The notes beneath the pieces were generated by a model. That model was given only the letters and a program-made list of their open reading frames with translations. It had not been told where the DNA came from and did no database searches. The translations under genes and the position numbers were made by a program. Source: Sphingomonadales bacterium (GTDB lineage: Bacteria; Pseudomonadota; Alphaproteobacteria; Sphingomonadales; Sphingomonadaceae). From it: a DNA stretch of 64,000 nt. Where the stretch lies: NCBI GenBank assembly GCA_025352685.1, contig JANXSN010000106.1, positions 59,730 through 123,729 on the forward strand, in the 5' to 3' direction. Shown in pieces: positions 1 through 9,585 of this stretch. Every line of letters starts with the position of its first letter. Positions within the stretch are counted from its first letter, which is position 1.

Positions 1-10
1 CGGCACCCAT

Positions 11-1126
11 TTGCGCGTCGTCGCTCAGCCGGTTCCCGACGGCGGATTGCTTGTCGTGTTCGAAGATCAGACTGAGCAATTGCAGCTGGCAACGGCGCGC
101 GATACGTTGCTCCGGGTACGCACCGCAACGTTTGACAATTTGTTCGAAGCGGTAGGCGTGTTCGCGGCGGACGGGCGGCTCAATTTGTGGAATACACGAT
201 TCCGTGAGGTCTGGGGTTTCGAAGAGAGCCTGCTTTCGCGCCACCCGCGCGTCGATACACTCGCCGAGGCGGCGGCAGGGACGCTGACGACCCCAGCCCG
301 CGCCGCGTTAATCCGCGATGTCGTACGCGCAGCGACGGTCGACCGCACCTCACGTTCGGGTCGCGTCGCAATGAAGGACGGGCGACATTTCGAATTTGCT
401 GCTGTTCCCCTGCCTGACGGGAATGCGCTGTTCACCATGCTCGATGTGACCGACAGTCGACGGGTAGAACGCGTGCTGCGTGACCGGGCCGAAGCGTTCG
501 AGGCGGCGGACAAGGTGAAGACGGCGTTCGTCGCAAACATGAGTTACGAGCTGCGCACGCCGCTGACGTCTATCGGCGGTTTTGCAGAAATGATGGCCAA
601 GGGCTACGCGGGCGAGCTGAGCGGCGAGGCCAAGGCCTATGTTGACGCCATTCTGGAATCGGTCGGAAAACTCGGGTCATTGGTCGACGAGACGTTGCAA
701 CTGACACAAACCGAGGCTGGACTTGCAGCAGTCGACCGAGAGACGGTCGATCTGTTGCAGATGCTCGATCGTGCTGTCGCTTCGAATGAGGAAGCTGCGC
801 TTGTCAAAGACATCGATTTCGCCACCGATCTGCACGTATCGATCGGGCGGGTCGAGGGCGATGCGCGTCGGCTGTGTGAAGCGGTGGAGAAACTGCTGGG
901 GAATGCAATTGCACAGACCCCCGCCAAGGGCCGCGTTCTGCTTCACGCGAGCGGGACTACGGAGGGCGCGTTGATTGTGGTGTCGGACAATGGGCCGGGC
1001 GATGAAGCGGGAGGTAGTGGGACGATTACTTCGGCACGCGAGTCGATCAAGGTGCACGGCGGCGCGCTGTCTGTGATGGCCAAGGCGGGGCAGGGAACGC
1101 TTGTGCGGATTGATTTGCCGCGATGA
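11..1126 (+). CDS. divL: C-terminal part of a PAS/HisKA/HATPase sensor kinase-like protein, DivL-like (Tyr at the phospho-acceptor position); 5' end may lie outside the window
   Basis: Translation has a PAS-like region, the H-box variant 'AFVANMSYELRTPLTSIGGFAEMM', the N-box 'LLGNAIAQTP' and the G1 box 'SDNGPG'. It is followed by tsaE/amgK/murU/addBA. Confidence 0.75.
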   Translation: MRVVAQPVPDGGLLVVFEDQTEQLQLATARDTLLRVRTATFDNLFEAVGVFAADGRLNLWNTRFREVWGFEESLLSRHPRVDTLAEAAAGTLTTPARAALIRDVVRAATVDRTSRSGRVAMKDGRHFEFAAVPLPDGNALFTMLDVTDSRRVERVLRDRAEAFEAADKVKTAFVANMSYELRTPLTSIGGFAEMMAKGYAGELSGEAKAYVDAILESVGKLGSLVDETLQLTQTEAGLAAVDRETVDLLQMLDRAVASNEEAALVKDIDFATDLHVSIGRVEGDARRLCEAVEKLLGNAIAQTPAKGRVLLHASGTTEGALIVVSDNGPGDEAGGSGTITSARESIKVHGGALSVMAKAGQGTLVRIDLPR

Positions 1127-1569
1127 TTGTATTGCAATCTCCAGAGGAATCTCTGGCGTTCGGAGCGAAGCTCGGCGCTGTGTTACGGACTGCTGACGTG
1201 GTCGCACTGTCGGGCCCTCTGGGAGCGGGCAAAACTTTAGTGACAAAGGGGATTTTAATGGGCCTCGGCTACGACGGGGACGTCCCAAGTCCCAGTTTTC
1301 CTCTCATGATTCCCTATGAGCCGCCTGCCGTCAGCGTCCCTCTTACCCATATCGACCTCTACCGCATCCACGACTCTGCCGGGCTAACCGAACTCGGGCT
1401 CGCCGACGCCCGGGCAGAAAGTGCCCTGGTGGTCGAGTGGCCGGACCGCCTCGTCAACGAGGGCTGGAAGGACATGCTCCTCCTTTTTTTCGAGATCATG
1501 TCTAACACTTCGCGTGTCTTGACAGCGCAGGTGCCTCCAGCCTGGGAAAGCCGATGGCCGCTGAGATGA
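1123..1569 (+). CDS. tsaE: tRNA threonylcarbamoyladenosine biosynthesis ATPase TsaE
   Basis: Walker A 'SGPLGAGKTLVTKGIL', 'VPSPSFPLM', 'HIDLYRI', 'VVEWPDRL'; ATGA overlap with the upstream CDS. Confidence 0.9.
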   Translation: MIVLQSPEESLAFGAKLGAVLRTADVVALSGPLGAGKTLVTKGILMGLGYDGDVPSPSFPLMIPYEPPAVSVPLTHIDLYRIHDSAGLTELGLADARAESALVVEWPDRLVNEGWKDMLLLFFEIMSNTSRVLTAQVPPAWESRWPLR

Positions 1570-2543
1570 CTCCGCCCGCCGCGGCGCCCGCTTTCCTTAC
1601 CTCTGCTGGGTGGGGAAACGCGCGCATCGAGCCGCTCGCGGGCGATGCGTCGTTTCGCCGATATTTTCGCGTTATCGACGCCGGTCGTCGCGCCGTGCTG
1701 ATGGATGCGCCGCCGCCGCACGAGGATCCTCGTGCTTTCCTGCGCATTGCGCGGCATTTGTGCGCACAAGGCTTTGCCGCGCCCAAGATCCTCGCGGAAG
1801 ATCTCAATGCCGGGCTCGTTCTGCTCGAAGACTTCGGTGACGCGCGGATGCGCGAAATGGTCGACGCAGGCGATGTCGATGAGGCCGCTACCTATGCTGC
1901 GACTATTGCACTCTTGGCAGAGCTCCACCGTCATCCGCCTGCAGCCGTACCTCCCTATTCGCGTGCCGAGCTGCATCGCGAGGCTGGATTGTTCACTGAA
2001 TGGTATTGCCCTGCGGCGGGTCTCAAAGTCGACGCAGAGACATATCATGCCGCGTGGAACATCGTCTTCGACCGGATCGGAGACGCGGCATCGGTAACAG
2101 TGCTGCGCGACTACCACGCCGAGAATATCATGCTGCGCGCCGGACGGGACGGATACGCGCATCTCGGGTTGCTCGATTTTCAGGACGCGCTCGTCGGCCA
2201 CCCGGCTTATGATCTGGTTTCAATGCTGCAGGACGCGCGGCGCGATGTCCCGCCTGCGATCGAAACAGCGATGCTCGTCGAGTACCAACGCATTGCCTGT
2301 CCTGGCCCTGACTTCGCTGCGAGCTACGCAATCTTTGGTGGCCAGCGAAACGCCAAGATTCTGGGTATCTTTACGCGCCTGTGGCAGCGCGACGGGAAGC
2401 CGCGCTACCTCGACTTTTTGCCGCGCGTTTGGGGCTATCTTGAGCGCGATCTCGCCCACCCCGCTCTTGCCGAGGTGCTGGCGTGGTTCGACACAAACAT
2501 CCCGGCCAACAAACGCAACGACTGTCTGAAGGTTTCTGCATGA
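1554..2543 (+). CDS. amgK: Aminoglycoside phosphotransferase-fold sugar kinase, probable N-acetylmuramate/N-acetylglucosamine kinase AmgK
   Basis: APH-fold motifs 'VLRDYHAENIML' and 'GLLDFQDALVGHPAYDLVSMLQDARR'; directly coupled to a MurU-like nucleotidyltransferase. Confidence 0.8.
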   Translation: MAAEMTPPAAAPAFLTSAGWGNARIEPLAGDASFRRYFRVIDAGRRAVLMDAPPPHEDPRAFLRIARHLCAQGFAAPKILAEDLNAGLVLLEDFGDARMREMVDAGDVDEAATYAATIALLAELHRHPPAAVPPYSRAELHREAGLFTEWYCPAAGLKVDAETYHAAWNIVFDRIGDAASVTVLRDYHAENIMLRAGRDGYAHLGLLDFQDALVGHPAYDLVSMLQDARRDVPPAIETAMLVEYQRIACPGPDFAASYAIFGGQRNAKILGIFTRLWQRDGKPRYLDFLPRVWGYLERDLAHPALAEVLAWFDTNIPANKRNDCLKVSA

Positions 2544-3265
2544 CCGGCGTGCCTGTCCCCAAGACCGCAATGGTCATGGCAGCTGGCCTTGGCAAGCGGA
2601 TGCGGCCGTTGACCGCGGCGCGACCCAAACCACTGGTTGAGGTTGCCGGCGCGGCGCTGATCGACCATGTCCTCGAACGGCTCGCAGCAGCTGGCGTGAC
2701 CCGCGCTGTGGTCAATGTACATTATTTCGCCGACGCGCTCGAAGCGCATCTGGAGCGGCATGATCACGGGCTCGAAATCGTGATTTCCGACGAGCGGACG
2801 AAGCTTCTCGAAACTGGCGGCGGCATCGTAAAGGCATTGCCGCTCATCGACGCAGATCCGTTCATTCAGGTGAACAGCGACAATTTCTGGGTCAACGGCC
2901 CCGTCGATGCGCTCGACCTGCTTGCGCAACGTTGGGACGACACAACGATGGACGCGTTGCTGCTGCTGGTGCCGCTCGCGCGTGCGAACTGCCACAGCGG
3001 GAAGGGCGATTTCCATATGGAGGCAGGGGGCAAGATCGTACGGCGGCGGGTCGGCCGCATTGCCCCGTTTGTTTGGACCGGCGTGCAGATGTTGTCGAAG
3101 CGTCTGATTGCGGAGCCGCCGGCCGACGCATTCTCGACAAACGTTTTTTGGGACCGTGCGATTGCTGCGGCACGGTGCTACGGCGTTGTGCATCAGGGGC
3201 TGTGGTTCGATGTCGGCAGTCCGCCTGCGATTGCGCGAACCGAGGCGATCCTCGCCGATGCCTGA
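2540..3265 (+). CDS. murU: Nucleotidyltransferase, probable N-acetylmuramate-alpha-1-phosphate uridylyltransferase MurU
   Basis: 'TAMVMAAGLGKRMRPLTAARPKPLVEVAG' sugar-nucleotidyltransferase signature; ATGA overlap with the upstream kinase. Confidence 0.8.
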   Translation: MTGVPVPKTAMVMAAGLGKRMRPLTAARPKPLVEVAGAALIDHVLERLAAAGVTRAVVNVHYFADALEAHLERHDHGLEIVISDERTKLLETGGGIVKALPLIDADPFIQVNSDNFWVNGPVDALDLLAQRWDDTTMDALLLLVPLARANCHSGKGDFHMEAGGKIVRRRVGRIAPFVWTGVQMLSKRLIAEPPADAFSTNVFWDRAIAAARCYGVVHQGLWFDVGSPPAIARTEAILADA

Positions 3266-6194
3266 CGGGCGCGGCCCTAAAGTCTTCGCAATTCCCGTTT
3301 ACCGATCGTTCGCCGACGCTTTGGTTACGGGATTGCTCGCGCAATGTGGCCATGACCGTATGGCGCTGGCGCGCGGCATGATCCTCGTTCCCAACAATCG
3401 GGCAATCCGCGCGATCACCGATGCGTTCGTGCGCCGTGCCGCCGAGGGCCTGCTCCTGCCGCGCATTGTCGCGATTGGAGACGCGGGCGAGTCTCCCGGG
3501 ATCGCTCTTGACGACATCGAGAACGATGTTCCGCCCGCCGTGGACCCGATGAGCCGCCGATTGATCCTTGCGCGGCTCATCCAAGAACAAAGTCGCGTCG
3601 GGGGACGTCGCGTCGGAGCAGCAGAGGCCGTCCGCCTTGCCGTTGAGCTGGGTGGCGTACTCGACGAACTTATCGCAGAAGACCGTACGCCCGGTGATGT
3701 GCGTGCACTCGATGTCGGACCAGACCTTGCCCGGCACTGGCAAAAATCGCTCGACGTGCTCGCGACGGTGATCGAACGCTGGCCCGAGGAATTGGCGAGA
3801 CTGAAGCGCATCGATCTGCCGGAACGGCGCAACCAGCTGTTGCGTGCTCTCGCCAGACGGTGGCGCGACCATCCTCCAGGTCATTATGTTTTTGCAGCAG
3901 GCGTGACAAGCTCAGCCAAGGCAGTCGCCGAAGTCTTGTCGGTCGTGGCCTCGATGCCGCACGGATCAGTCATTCTCCCAGGACTCGATCTTGCGAGCCC
4001 TGATGCGGAGTGGGAGGCGATCGCCGGCGATGAGCACCATGTCGCGATCGAGACGCACCCGCAACACCATCTACGCCTCCTCCTGGACCGCATCGGCGTC
4101 GCGAGGGCCGAAGTCGTGCGCTGGCGCTGGGGCGATGGCAAACCGCGCAAGGCCGTGCGCGGTCGGGCGGTCGCCAACGCTTTTGCGCCAGCTCGTTTCA
4201 CAAGCAAATGGATCAATTTACCGAAACCGCAGCGGTCGCTGAAGGGTGTCCGCCTCGCTACCTTCGCCGCCCCCGCCCATGAAGCGCAGGGAATTGCGAT
4301 TGCGCTGCGCGAGACGCTGGAGACGCCGGGTCGAACCGCGGCGCTGGTAACCAATGATCGTGGTCTCGCAGCGCGTGTAGGGGCGCATCTTCGGCGCTGG
4401 GGGATCGAGGCTGACGATTCAGCGGGACATCCGCTCACGGTCATGCCGATCGGTGTCTTGATTCAGGCGATTGCTGCACTCGGCGTCGAGCGCTTCGCTC
4501 CGACCGCATTGCTCACCGTCCTCAAACATCCGCTTGTCCGCAGCGGCGCAGACCGGCTGGTGTGGCTTGACGGCGTCCGCCGGCTCGATGTCGCCCTACG
4601 AGGACCGCGTCCCGCGCCCGGCCTTGACGGGTTAGCGGCTTGGCTAAAGAGTGGCAATGAACGCGAACGGGCAAACCGGGATCGCGCCGTTGACTGGTGG
4701 GCCGAAACCGCGCCTGTGTTCAAGGAATTTGAGGCGGCGTTTGCTTCGGCGCGCGCGTCATTCGGTGATCTTCTGACTGCGATCCGAAACCTGCTCGAAA
4801 TACTGGGCGGCGAACATGTTTGGGCTGGCACAGCTGGCCGCTGCGCGGCTGATCTCTTTACCGAACTTTCAAGCCGCCACGAACTCGGTCCCAACGACTT
4901 TGCGCACGACGACCTGCTGCCCTTGCTCCGTCTATTGCTCGCCGAAAAGGCGATACGGCCACCTCAAGGCGGCCATCCGCGCGTTGCAATCTACGGATTA
5001 ATCGAAGCACGATTGCAGCAGCCCGACTTTCTTATTCTCGGCGGTCTGAATGAAGGCAACTGGCCATCCGGGACGGGGGTAGACCCCTGGCTTAGCCCCC
5101 GTGTACGACGCGAGTTGGGCCTTGCCAATTCTGAACGTCGCGTTGGTCTCGCGGCGCATGATCTCGCGATGGCGCTAGGGGCAGGCGAAGTCCTGCTCAC
5201 CCGCACTGTTCGTGATACCCGATCGGCAACGATCGCCTCGCGTTTCGTGCTCCGGTTGGAGGCCATGACTGGCGGCCTCGACAGTGATGAACGGCTTCCC
5301 AAACTCGCAAACGTGATCGATGCCAATACCGGGGCTTCGGAACCTGTGGATCGACCTCGACCGTCGCCGCCTATCGCCGACCGCCCTCGGCGCATATCGG
5401 TCACCGAGGTCGACCGTCTCAAAGCAGACCCGTACGCATTTTACGCGCGCGCCATGCTTCGCCTGTCAACGCTTGATCCGGTGGATGCCGATCCCGGACC
5501 GGCCTGGAGGGGTAGCGCCGTTCATGCTGTGCTTGACCAGTGGATGCGAGAGGACCAGTTGAGTCCCGACAAAATCCTTCCGCGTATCGAAAGGCTGCTG
5601 AACGGAGCCGGCGTTCACCCGCTTGTCCGCACGCTTTGGCAGCCGCGACTGGTTGAAGCCTGCGAATGGATCGCCAGCAGAATTGCGACGTCACGCATCG
5701 AAGACAGGCGTGAGCCGCTCGTCACCGAAATAAGGGGCACGGCGCAGATTGCCGGAATCGAGCTGAGCGGCATCGCTGACCGCATCGATCGGCTGGATGG
5801 CGGTAACCTTGCCATCGTCGACTATAAAACGGGCAGCGCCCCCAGCAGCAAGGCCGTCGCCGCAGGTTATTCGATGCAACTTGGTCTGCTCGCCGCCATT
5901 GCCGAGCGCGGCGGGTTTCCAGAGGTCACGGGCAAGGCGGCCAAGTTCGAATATTGGTCGCTTGCCAGCGACGGCAAGCGTGGTTTCGGTAAGGTCTCGT
6001 CACCCGTCGGTGGAACTGGCCAGGGTCAGATCGAGCTTTTCGTTGCCGAGGCAGAACGCGCCTTCACTGAAGCCGCCGAAAGGTGGCTCACAGGCACTGC
6101 CCCCTTTATCGCGAAGCTGGTGCCCGAATATGCGCCCTACGACGACTATGATCAGCTGATGCGCAGAGACGAGTGGTATGGCCGCGAAGACTGA
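3258..6194 (+). CDS. addB: Double-strand break repair protein AddB
   Basis: Long ORF with the C-terminal nuclease motif 'LAIVDYKTGSAP' and 'FLILGGLNEGNWP'; directly upstream of addA. Start set at ATG 3258. Confidence 0.9.
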   Translation: MPDGRGPKVFAIPVYRSFADALVTGLLAQCGHDRMALARGMILVPNNRAIRAITDAFVRRAAEGLLLPRIVAIGDAGESPGIALDDIENDVPPAVDPMSRRLILARLIQEQSRVGGRRVGAAEAVRLAVELGGVLDELIAEDRTPGDVRALDVGPDLARHWQKSLDVLATVIERWPEELARLKRIDLPERRNQLLRALARRWRDHPPGHYVFAAGVTSSAKAVAEVLSVVASMPHGSVILPGLDLASPDAEWEAIAGDEHHVAIETHPQHHLRLLLDRIGVARAEVVRWRWGDGKPRKAVRGRAVANAFAPARFTSKWINLPKPQRSLKGVRLATFAAPAHEAQGIAIALRETLETPGRTAALVTNDRGLAARVGAHLRRWGIEADDSAGHPLTVMPIGVLIQAIAALGVERFAPTALLTVLKHPLVRSGADRLVWLDGVRRLDVALRGPRPAPGLDGLAAWLKSGNERERANRDRAVDWWAETAPVFKEFEAAFASARASFGDLLTAIRNLLEILGGEHVWAGTAGRCAADLFTELSSRHELGPNDFAHDDLLPLLRLLLAEKAIRPPQGGHPRVAIYGLIEARLQQPDFLILGGLNEGNWPSGTGVDPWLSPRVRRELGLANSERRVGLAAHDLAMALGAGEVLLTRTVRDTRSATIASRFVLRLEAMTGGLDSDERLPKLANVIDANTGASEPVDRPRPSPPIADRPRRISVTEVDRLKADPYAFYARAMLRLSTLDPVDADPGPAWRGSAVHAVLDQWMREDQLSPDKILPRIERLLNGAGVHPLVRTLWQPRLVEACEWIASRIATSRIEDRREPLVTEIRGTAQIAGIELSGIADRIDRLDGGNLAIVDYKTGSAPSSKAVAAGYSMQLGLLAAIAERGGFPEVTGKAAKFEYWSLASDGKRGFGKVSSPVGGTGQGQIELFVAEAERAFTEAAERWLTGTAPFIAKLVPEYAPYDDYDQLMRRDEWYGRED

Positions 6195-9100
6195 GCACTT
6201 TTCTGTCCTCAAGGACGCACAGGCGGCGGCGTCTTCCCCCGATCTCGATGTGTGGCTCTCGGCTTCGGCAGGGACGGGCAAGACCTATGTACTCGCCGCA
6301 CGAGTGCTGCGGTTACTGCTGCGGCCAGGCGTGCGCCCCGAATCAATCCTGTGCCTGACGTTCACCCGCGCAGGCGCAGCCGAAATGGCCGAGCGGGTCC
6401 ATCGTCGCCTCGCTTGGTGGGCGCGGCTGGATGAAGATGCCCTGCGTCGCGAGCTGACCGCGCTGGGCGAAGACCATAGCGAAACGGCGATTCGTAAGGC
6501 ACGGACCTTGTTTGCGGCAGTGCTGGAGGCGCGAGGCGGCGGTTTGCGTGTCATGACCATCCACGCTTTTTGCCAAACGCTGCTCGGCACGTTCCCGCTC
6601 GAGGCTGGGCTGGCTCCGGGGTTCCGCGCTGTTGAAGGTCGCGAACAGGCAGCGCTTGCATTCACGGTTCTCGGGGCGCTGGCTGAGGACGCCGAGCGGG
6701 AGAACGATGCCCGGCTTATCGCGGCCTTGCGGGCGCTGTCGCGGCGGCTAGGCGAAGCAGGCGCGCGCAGCTTCCTGCTTCGCGCCGCAAAGCACCTCCA
6801 AGCACTCGACTCGCTGTCCGAAGGCATCGACGCCCAGGTCCGCCGCGCGCTCAATGTGCCTGCGGAGTTTTCAGCTGCGACCATCATCGAGGCCTGTCGG
6901 GACGGAAATTTTGACCGAGAGATGCTGTTCGGGCTCGGCCAGCTCCTAACCGAGTGGGGCAAGACCGGAGAGAAGCGCGCCACGACGATTTCGGAATGGT
7001 TCCACAGCGACCCGGAAACACGCGCCGCCCAGCTTGGCGTGCTCCACCTCGTCTGGAGCAAGGCGGACGGTGAACCGCGTACCGGCAGGGGCCAGGTGCC
7101 GACCGATCGCGCCTACGAATCACTCGCAGCACAGATGCATGCGTGGTGCTCGGACTTGATCGCTCGCCAACAACGCGCTGTTCTTGCCGACGACATAGCT
7201 CACGGGCTGTACGCCGCCCGTCGCTATGCGCGAGCTTATGCCGACGCCAAGCAGGCGGCCGGACTGGTCGATTTCGATGATTTGATCGATAAGGCAGTCG
7301 AGTTGCTGACTGACCCCGGCATGGGGGCCTGGATCGCATACAAACTCGATCAGGCGACAGATCACGTCCTTGTCGATGAGGCACAGGACACGAACTTACG
7401 CCAATGGGACATAGTCAAAGCACTCGCGGGTGAGTTCTGGACAGGAGACGGTGCGCGCGGCGACGCGTTACGGACCCTATTCACGGTCGGCGATTACAAG
7501 CAGGCGATATTCGGCTTTCAGGGCACTGACCCGCGGTACTATGCGGCAGCTGGCAATGAATTTGGTGAAGCAGCGCGGGCTGTGGGCCGCAAACTGGCTC
7601 GGCTGTCGTTGGACCGCTCCTTTCGCTCGACGCCGCCCGTGCTTGATGTCGTCGATGCGCTACTCGAGGAATTGGGCGAGGATGCATTTGGCGATCAGGC
7701 CCGCGACCGCCATCAAAGCGCGTCTGGAGGAGCCGGGAGCGTCACCCTGTTGCCGCCGGTCCGTACGCCAGAAGACGAGGACGAGGACGGCGAAGAGGGG
7801 TGGGTGCCAACCGCAACCCGTGCGCTGGCTTCGGCTATCGCTAAGCAAATCCGTCGCTGGATCGACGATGGACTGATCCTCGCAGCCAAAGGACGCGCGC
7901 TGACCCCGGGCGATGTCATGATCCTTGTCCGCAAGCGGGGCGATCTGGCTGCCTTGCTCGTCGCACGCTTACAAAAGGAGGGCGTTCCTGTCGCGGGCAT
8001 AGACCGCTTGCGGCTCGCGTCACCGCTGGCAGTCAAGGACTGCCTGGCGGCGATGCGCTTTGCGGTGCAGCCCGACGACGACTTGACGCTTGCTTGCCTG
8101 CTCGTGTCACCGATCTGCGGGTGGACGCAGCAAGAGCTTTACGACGTCGCGCATAGCAAGCGACAGGGATCGCTGTGGGCAGAGGTGCGGCGGCAGAGCG
8201 ACGACCGCATTCTGGGTAAATTGCTCAACATGGCCGATTTCGTTACGCCGTACGTCTTTCTCGAAACAATGCTTTCAGGCGAAATAGGTGCCCGCAAGAA
8301 CTTGCTCCGTCGTCTGGGCAACGAGGCCGCCGATCCTCTCGACGAACTTTTGAACACTGCTCTGCAATTCGAACGTGAAGGCATAGCGTCGCTGCAGGGC
8401 TTCCTCGACTGGTTCGATAAGGGCGACGGCGAAATCGTACGTGATGCTGGTGGTCCGGGCAATGCCGTCCGTGTGATGACTGTTCACGCCGCAAAAGGCT
8501 TGCAATCTCCGCTCGTCATCCTTGCCGATGCGACGGCCGATCCTGACGCAGGCAACGACCGTGATTTCAACTGGGTGCTGGACGAAACCAATGTTCCCTT
8601 GTTCCGCCCACGGGCTGCGGAGCGGCGACTGGTCGCCGAATTGGAAGCCATGGCAACGCGCCTCGCCGAGGCGGACCGCCGTGAACACTGGCGTCTGCTC
8701 TATGTCGCGATGACCCGTGCCGAGGAACAACTCGTCGTCGCCGGATCGTTAACTCAGCGACACAAGGTCGTACCCGAAGCAAGCTGGCACAGCGCGATCG
8801 AACGCGCGATGCGGCGCGTGGGCGCAGCGCAAGTCGAACTGCCCGAATGGGGCGTCGGGTGGGTCCACGCGGTTGGTGGGCATGCCAACGCGCCGACGGC
8901 AAAGGCCGACGAACCGTCTCTACCGGTCCCACGCCCCACGTGGCTCGACTGTTCCGCACCCCTCGAGGCCCGGCCGTCACGCCCCCTCAGCCCCTCGTCG
9001 CTGGGGGAAGATGCGATTTCAGACCCACCGCCGAGCAGCGCGATGCAGGTCGCTGTCGAGCGCGGCCGCTTGATGCACGCACTTTTTGAACGCCTCCCTT

Positions 9101-9585
9101 CACTGGCACCTGAAATCCGGGCTGCAGCTGCCGCTCGGTGGCTCGAGCGGTCTTCAGGCGTGACCGATCCCCGAACGCGCGATGCCCTCGCGGGCGCTGT
9201 GCTCAGCGTTATTCACCATGCAGATTACGAGGCTCTGTTCGCGCCGGGCGGCCTTGCGGAAGTTCCTGTAGCGGGCGTCGTGGAGGGGATCGTGATTTCT
9301 GGCACCATCGACCGGCTGATTGTCGGTTCGGACTGCGTGGATATCGTCGATTTCAAGACAGGTCGCCGCGTGCCCGCCGGTTCCAGCGAGGTTCCAGATG
9401 CCTACAAACGTCAGATGGCAGCTTATGCAGCTGTATTGCGCGGGGTATTTCCCAGTCACAAGGTCCGAGCTGCGTTGCTCTACACCTCTGGTCCCAAACT
9501 TATCGTCCTGCGCGATGCCGATTTGGATGCGCACAAGCCCGGCTTGCAGACGACACAGGAACTCTTGCCACCTAGTACCAGTTGA
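6178..9585 (+). CDS. addA: Double-strand break repair helicase AddA
   Basis: UvrD/REP motifs '[21 protein letters not shown]', '[11 protein letters not shown]', '[13 protein letters not shown]', '[19 protein letters not shown]', and the C-terminal nuclease motif '[10 protein letters not shown]'. Confidence 0.95.

Follow-up and report, generated by a model that had tools for sequence, protein, structure and literature searches.

DivL of a sphingomonad: a predicted pseudo-histidine-kinase with a tyrosine acceptor position and a deleted ATP lid

The window analysed here, a stretch of 64,000 nucleotides, opens inside a kinase-like gene whose product carries tyrosine where histidine kinases have the phospho-acceptor histidine, which raises the question of whether this gene is a divL, as known from Caulobacter crescentus, and what its ATP-binding (CA) domain can still do. 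The earlier note had placed the gene at positions 11-1126; its reading frame in fact begins at G000:C98:58540 of the source genome (G000), about 1.2 kb upstream of window base 1, and runs to a stop codon at 1124-1126, the TTG at 11 being merely the first start-like codon past the window edge. Recovery of the 5' part from beyond the window, as the note had advised, yielded a complete frame of 771 aa. In translation, the product shows an N-terminal hydrophobic stretch within residues 11-40, and ahead of the DHp-CA region matches to PAS_4, PAS_8 and, at two places, PAS_7 were obtained. Coordinates of the features are collected in Table 1.

Table 1. Features of divL and its neighbours in the window (window positions), and of two further incomplete kinases elsewhere in the same genome (contig positions).
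Feature	Position	Strand	Basis or remark
divL, 3' part (residues 398-771 plus stop)	2..1126	+	genome reading frame
Last PAS domain (residues 440-552)	128..466	+	Pfam PAS_7/PAS_4
DHp domain, HisKA-type with Tyr (residues 553-640)	467..730	+	Pfam HisKA 570-637
Tyr579 (TAC), phospho-acceptor position, equivalent of Caulobacter DivL Tyr550	545..547	+	
Arg582, equivalent of Caulobacter DivL Arg553	554..556	+	
Asp626, equivalent of Caulobacter DivL output-helix Asp595	686..688	+	
Degenerate CA (HATPase_c) domain	731..1123	+	HATPase_c E 1.1e-6
N-box Asn698	902..904	+	present in G000, absent in five congeners read
G1 box SDNGPG	983..1000	+	
Lid/F-box deletion site and G2 remnant (DEAG-GSGTITSARESIKVHGG)	1001..1063	+	G1-HGG spacing
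tsaE	1123..1569	+	TIGR00150 above cut-off; ATG overlaps divL stop by 4 bases
amgK-like sugar kinase gene	1554..2543	+	NF045698 E 4.7e-75, under curated cut-off
murU-like nucleotidyltransferase ORF, true start probably inside	2483..3265	+	NF045697 E 3.2e-75, under curated cut-off
addB-like ORF, true start probably inside	3108..6194	+	named from position and sequence, by eye
addA-like helicase/nuclease gene	6178..9585	+	ORF; name from sequence, by eye
Half-kinase L266/L184	G000:C9:58442-59194	-	no acceptor His (residue varies between orthologs), CA intact
Half-kinase L281/L188	G000:C9:845-1591	-	invariant HELRTP(L/V)NAI, i.e. HELRTPLNAIQGF-type H-box

Several lines of evidence identify the gene, as judged from its sequence, as divL of this sphingomonad. 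Caulobacter DivL (4q20) was the top PDB sequence match (E 7e-22), and both of its chains were the first two PDB matches in a fold search with the DHp-CA region as modelled by AlphaFold2 (pLDDT 87.9), in which DHp forms two long helices and the CA domain an alpha/beta, Bergerat-like core still predicted with high confidence. The matches of the fold search also included RetS-type regulatory histidine kinases (6dk7/6dk8). In these, a kinase fold regulates another kinase instead of phosphorylating a response regulator; the partners of RetS and DivL differ, and the fold search makes RetS no more than a structural neighbour. In a kinase tree of 89 sequences, where the non-DivL outgroup consisted of kinases of one genome (G000) only, all DivL orthologs together with 4q20 were set apart from nine other G000 kinases with moderate support (UFBoot 82). 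The equivalence with DivL put forward in the earlier note was thus supported by sequence match, fold and tree, including the phylogeny it had proposed as a check, as well as by the synteny and the joint loss with DivK and ChpT described below.

The H-box reads NMS-Y-ELRTPLTSIGGF, with an in-frame TAC codon for tyrosine exactly as had been reported, and fits the DivL pattern S-Y-(E/Q)-(L/F)-R-x-P-L. Tyr was found in 166 of 169 readable DivL orthologs across the class, a few of which represent duplicate strains, in agreement with its published conservation in DivL (PMC4211667). Since the residue is near-invariant among these orthologs, the Tyr alone is unsurprising. The other three carry His (two) or Val (one); these are L233 (G212), L252 (G458) and L232 (G162), and may be reversions or second paralogs. 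It should also be mentioned that L223 (G424) has an in-frame stop exactly at the position of the Tyr codon (LKSEFIANVS-stop), pointing to an error, a pseudogene or a real truncation.

The gene is the first in a cluster divL-tsaE-amgK-murU-addB-addA. Adjacency of divL and tsaE (and amgK) was found across Alphaproteobacteria, in many of the orthologs whose flank was read, and homologues of addB come after murU in relatives as part of the conserved neighbourhood. A large gene divergent from divL (L002:6360-8336, minus strand) has, by eye, the look of a CHASE2-type sensor with adenylate cyclase, and a lone GANTC site is located at L002:8421 in the upstream region common to both genes.

The kinase motifs of the CA domain were scored by alignment. 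The G1 box SDNGPG is retained, as previously noted, and the letters of the G2 region, SGTITSARESIKVHGG, were also described correctly; what had been read as a lid of altered sequence is a lid that has been deleted, as shown by the G1-HGG spacing. The stretch between the G1 box and the HGG motif is just 18 residues long, compared with 25-48 (32-48 in almost all, mostly 38-40) in other orthologs of the family, the exception being congener G092 with 17; because this spacing is so short, we conclude that the F-box, the ATP lid and the G2 box (about 20 residues) were deleted. Among seven sampled genomes of the genus a DivL match was found in six, and all five species with a complete DivL (G000 and four others) have the lid deletion. 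In the sixth species (G502), where DivL is split into two contig pieces, Tyr is present and the lid is intermediate. The N-box Asn is kept in G000 and gone in all five congeners read. Thus, of the features of an active HisKA kinase only the N and G1 boxes are present in the G000 protein, Tyr standing in place of His and the F and G2 boxes being deleted. Across Sphingomonadaceae, over half of the orthologs have a decayed F-box (Phe stands at its first position in 44 of 98, versus 60 of 64 in the rest of the class), and most retain G2. The suggestion that the HATPase is even more degraded than that of Caulobacter DivL therefore proved right, and it applies genus-wide. On the basis of these motifs we infer that DivL of this genus does not bind ATP; nevertheless, given the retained G1 box and alpha/beta core, the residual CA domain may bind nucleotide weakly. 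Loss of the lid as a consequence of DivK loss was considered and rejected, DivK being present in both G000 and G092.

The G000 genome encodes DivK, ChpT, CckA and CtrA, the latter 79% identical to Caulobacter; all CtrA identities given here are relative to a Caulobacter query. The DivK query was checked against PDB 1m5t, and the CckA query, a Caulobacter fragment, against PDB 5idj; a search for CckA with the pattern HDFNNLLT was abandoned, having matched just two other hybrid-type kinases. At an intact tsaE-amgK-murU locus, divL was missing in 12 of 121 family genomes (G003, G007, G021, G032, G040, G065, G074, G099, G103, G108, G112 and G115; loci L160-L162 and L164-L172). Two more genomes were left out of this count, G095 having no amgK match and the contig of G118 ending inside tsaE. 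No DivK was found in any of the 12 (best E 3e-21 or weaker, as against 7e-31 or better in DivK-bearing genomes), and no ChpT in 11, the twelfth giving a weak match. CtrA was lost in two and only 51-66% identical to the query in the other ten, the usual range being 71-81%. For CckA there was no match, a weak one or one in a shorter frame: the CckA-like matches of G003, G065, G074, G099 and G108 span 520-594 codons versus usually above 800. All five proteins are missing from G112, where the CckA-query match, at 2e-47, is no stronger than other kinases can give, and all five are present in G029 of the same genus.

Two further genomes, G014 (L113/L177) and G047 (L111/L178), keep the PAS part of DivL and have lost the Tyr motif of the DHp; DivK is absent and ChpT present in both. 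Co-occurrence of the DivL DHp with DivK gave a Fisher p of ~2e-14, a value that overstates the evidence because the genomes are related; the tree of tsaE-amgK-murU points to approximately 4-5 independent loss events. The link is not absolute, since G018, G058 and G059, and likewise the incomplete G023 and G084, keep DivL without detectable DivK. The joint loss connects DivL of sphingomonads with the DivK/CckA-ChpT-CtrA circuit, and extends a link between DivK and the DivL DHp proposed earlier (PMC2877005).

In Caulobacter, DivL promotes the kinase activity of CckA, and DivK~P bound to the DivL DHp stops that; the protein has neither kinase nor phosphatase activity and its CA domain was reported to be dispensable (PMC4211667, PMC7200025). 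More specifically, it shows no autokinase activity and binds TNP-ATP weakly, and it requires Arg553 for binding DivK~P (PMC4211667). The G000 protein resembles it (4Q20; Childers et al. 2014, PMC4211667) in the multi-PAS plus DHp-CA architecture, in the acceptor Tyr, in the predicted loss of kinase activity, in the presence of DivK, CckA, ChpT and CtrA in the genome, and in the DivK~P-switch residues R553/D595, conserved as R582/D626. It differs in that Caulobacter DivL has the N, G1, F and G2 boxes (PMC4211667), whereas the sphingomonad protein is without F-box, lid and G2, and in that Y562 and A601 of the former are Phe, conserved in the family, and Thr, respectively. As the switch residues are conserved, the same logic may be expected with an ATP-free CA domain, and by analogy with Caulobacter we infer that sphingomonad DivL activates CckA and senses DivK~P. 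A literature search returned no experimental study of any sphingomonad DivL.

The protein would thus be a membrane-anchored, multi-PAS pseudo-histidine-kinase that phosphorylates nothing, with the PAS domains and the helix bundle of the DHp probably serving as a docking platform. It would favour the kinase state of CckA, so that ChpT and CtrA become phosphorylated, and phosphorylated DivK settling on its DHp, where Tyr579 would occupy the place of His, would switch this stimulation off. With lid, F-box and G2 box deleted in the genus, the CA domain would have little capacity left to bind or use ATP, and it probably persists for its structural contribution to the DHp-CA-PAS assembly. We assign to the whole of this reading, a sphingomonad divL encoding a docking-platform pseudo-histidine-kinase with a deleted ATP lid and a probably structural CA domain, a probability of about 0.87. 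The earlier suggestion of a purely allosteric role is reasonable, but it does not mark a change of kind: since Caulobacter DivL already lacks kinase activity and its CA domain is reported to be dispensable, the lid loss would be a naturally occurring instance of a property already known.

Selection bears on what the CA domain still does. In close pairs, dN/dS amounted to 0.01-0.10 for PAS2-4, 0.03-0.05 for DHp and 0.09-0.11 for the CA core; the lid-end, computable in a single pair, gave 0.3, and in four congeners identity to G000 was 54-58% over CA versus 70-77% over DHp. These ratios indicate that DivL is in use and that constraint is seated in the PAS domains and DHp; given this strong purifying selection and the presence of DivK, CckA, ChpT and CtrA, divL is not a dying gene. 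The faster evolution of CA core and lid than of DHp, together with the F-box decay in more than half of Sphingomonadaceae and the two genomes already without DHp, could alternatively mean that the CA domain is drifting away neutrally with no role left, so that DHp-CA will eventually go and a PAS-only DivL remain. We consider this rather unlikely: the CA core still evolves at dN/dS of ~0.1 with its Bergerat-like core confidently predicted, and both DHp-less genomes are without DivK, whereas the genus of G000 keeps it. The same selection on the core after lid loss, and the confidently predicted fold, would also suit a residual CA domain with a new role, e.g. binding another protein or ligand instead of ATP; this is improbable, as the domain is highly divergent among congeners. 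That the gene encodes a common PAS histidine kinase, unrelated to DivL, in which His became Tyr by chance is very improbable, for although generic HK profiles match it too, tree, fold, synteny, the near-invariant Tyr across the class and the co-loss with DivK all disfavour such a kinase. Finally, a sequencing error, strain-specific mutation or pseudogene, for which only the shortened CA domain might speak, can be practically dismissed, Tyr and the identical deletion being common to four further species of the genus, the frame intact and the dN/dS values those of strong purifying selection.

This kind of DivL is already known, the lid-less variant is specific to the genus, and its biology fits published models. 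DivL forms without DHp-CA were described in DivK-less alphaproteobacteria (Brilli et al. 2010, PMC2877005), and G014 and G047 are such cases within Sphingomonadaceae. G000 DivL shares with these forms the loss of parts of the kinase domain; in them, however, the entire kinase region has gone along with DivK, whereas G000 DivL keeps DHp and DivK and loses the ATP lid and G2 only. A natural DivL with its ATP site disabled by deletion, and with DHp and DivK retained, would separate the two halves of the kinase fold: DHp for sensing DivK~P, and a CA domain not needed for ATP. Moreover, that DivL, DivK and ChpT were repeatedly lost together supports a place for DivL in the CtrA circuit in an order where this pathway has hardly been studied.

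As a side observation, contig C9 of G000 encodes two further related incomplete kinases (Table 1), one with an intact CA domain and one with the acceptor His; in proteins of the latter type no HATPase_c was recognisable even at E 0.1. A literature search found no description of such a pair. Three genera carry both: they occur in six genomes of the genus of G000, and in G001 and G002 from other genera. In G003, the sole DivK-less genome checked, nothing comparable turned up, and elsewhere in the order, in other families, their homologues are complete kinases. Judged by sequence, the two resemble a DivJ/PleC/PdhS-like kinase divided into complementary halves. An action on DivK is guesswork, and the formation of a heterodimer a conjecture; it is distinctly doubtful, though conceivable, that CckA in this genus, and maybe in a large part of Sphingomonadaceae, is controlled from above by a layer of incomplete kinases, namely a DivL lacking both His and ATP lid and a trans-phosphorylating pair that sets DivK~P. 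If so, the CA domain of one half-kinase would act on the His of the other, and DivL would sense the resulting DivK~P. The pair thereby raises a testable question, namely which protein phosphorylates DivK in sphingomonads.
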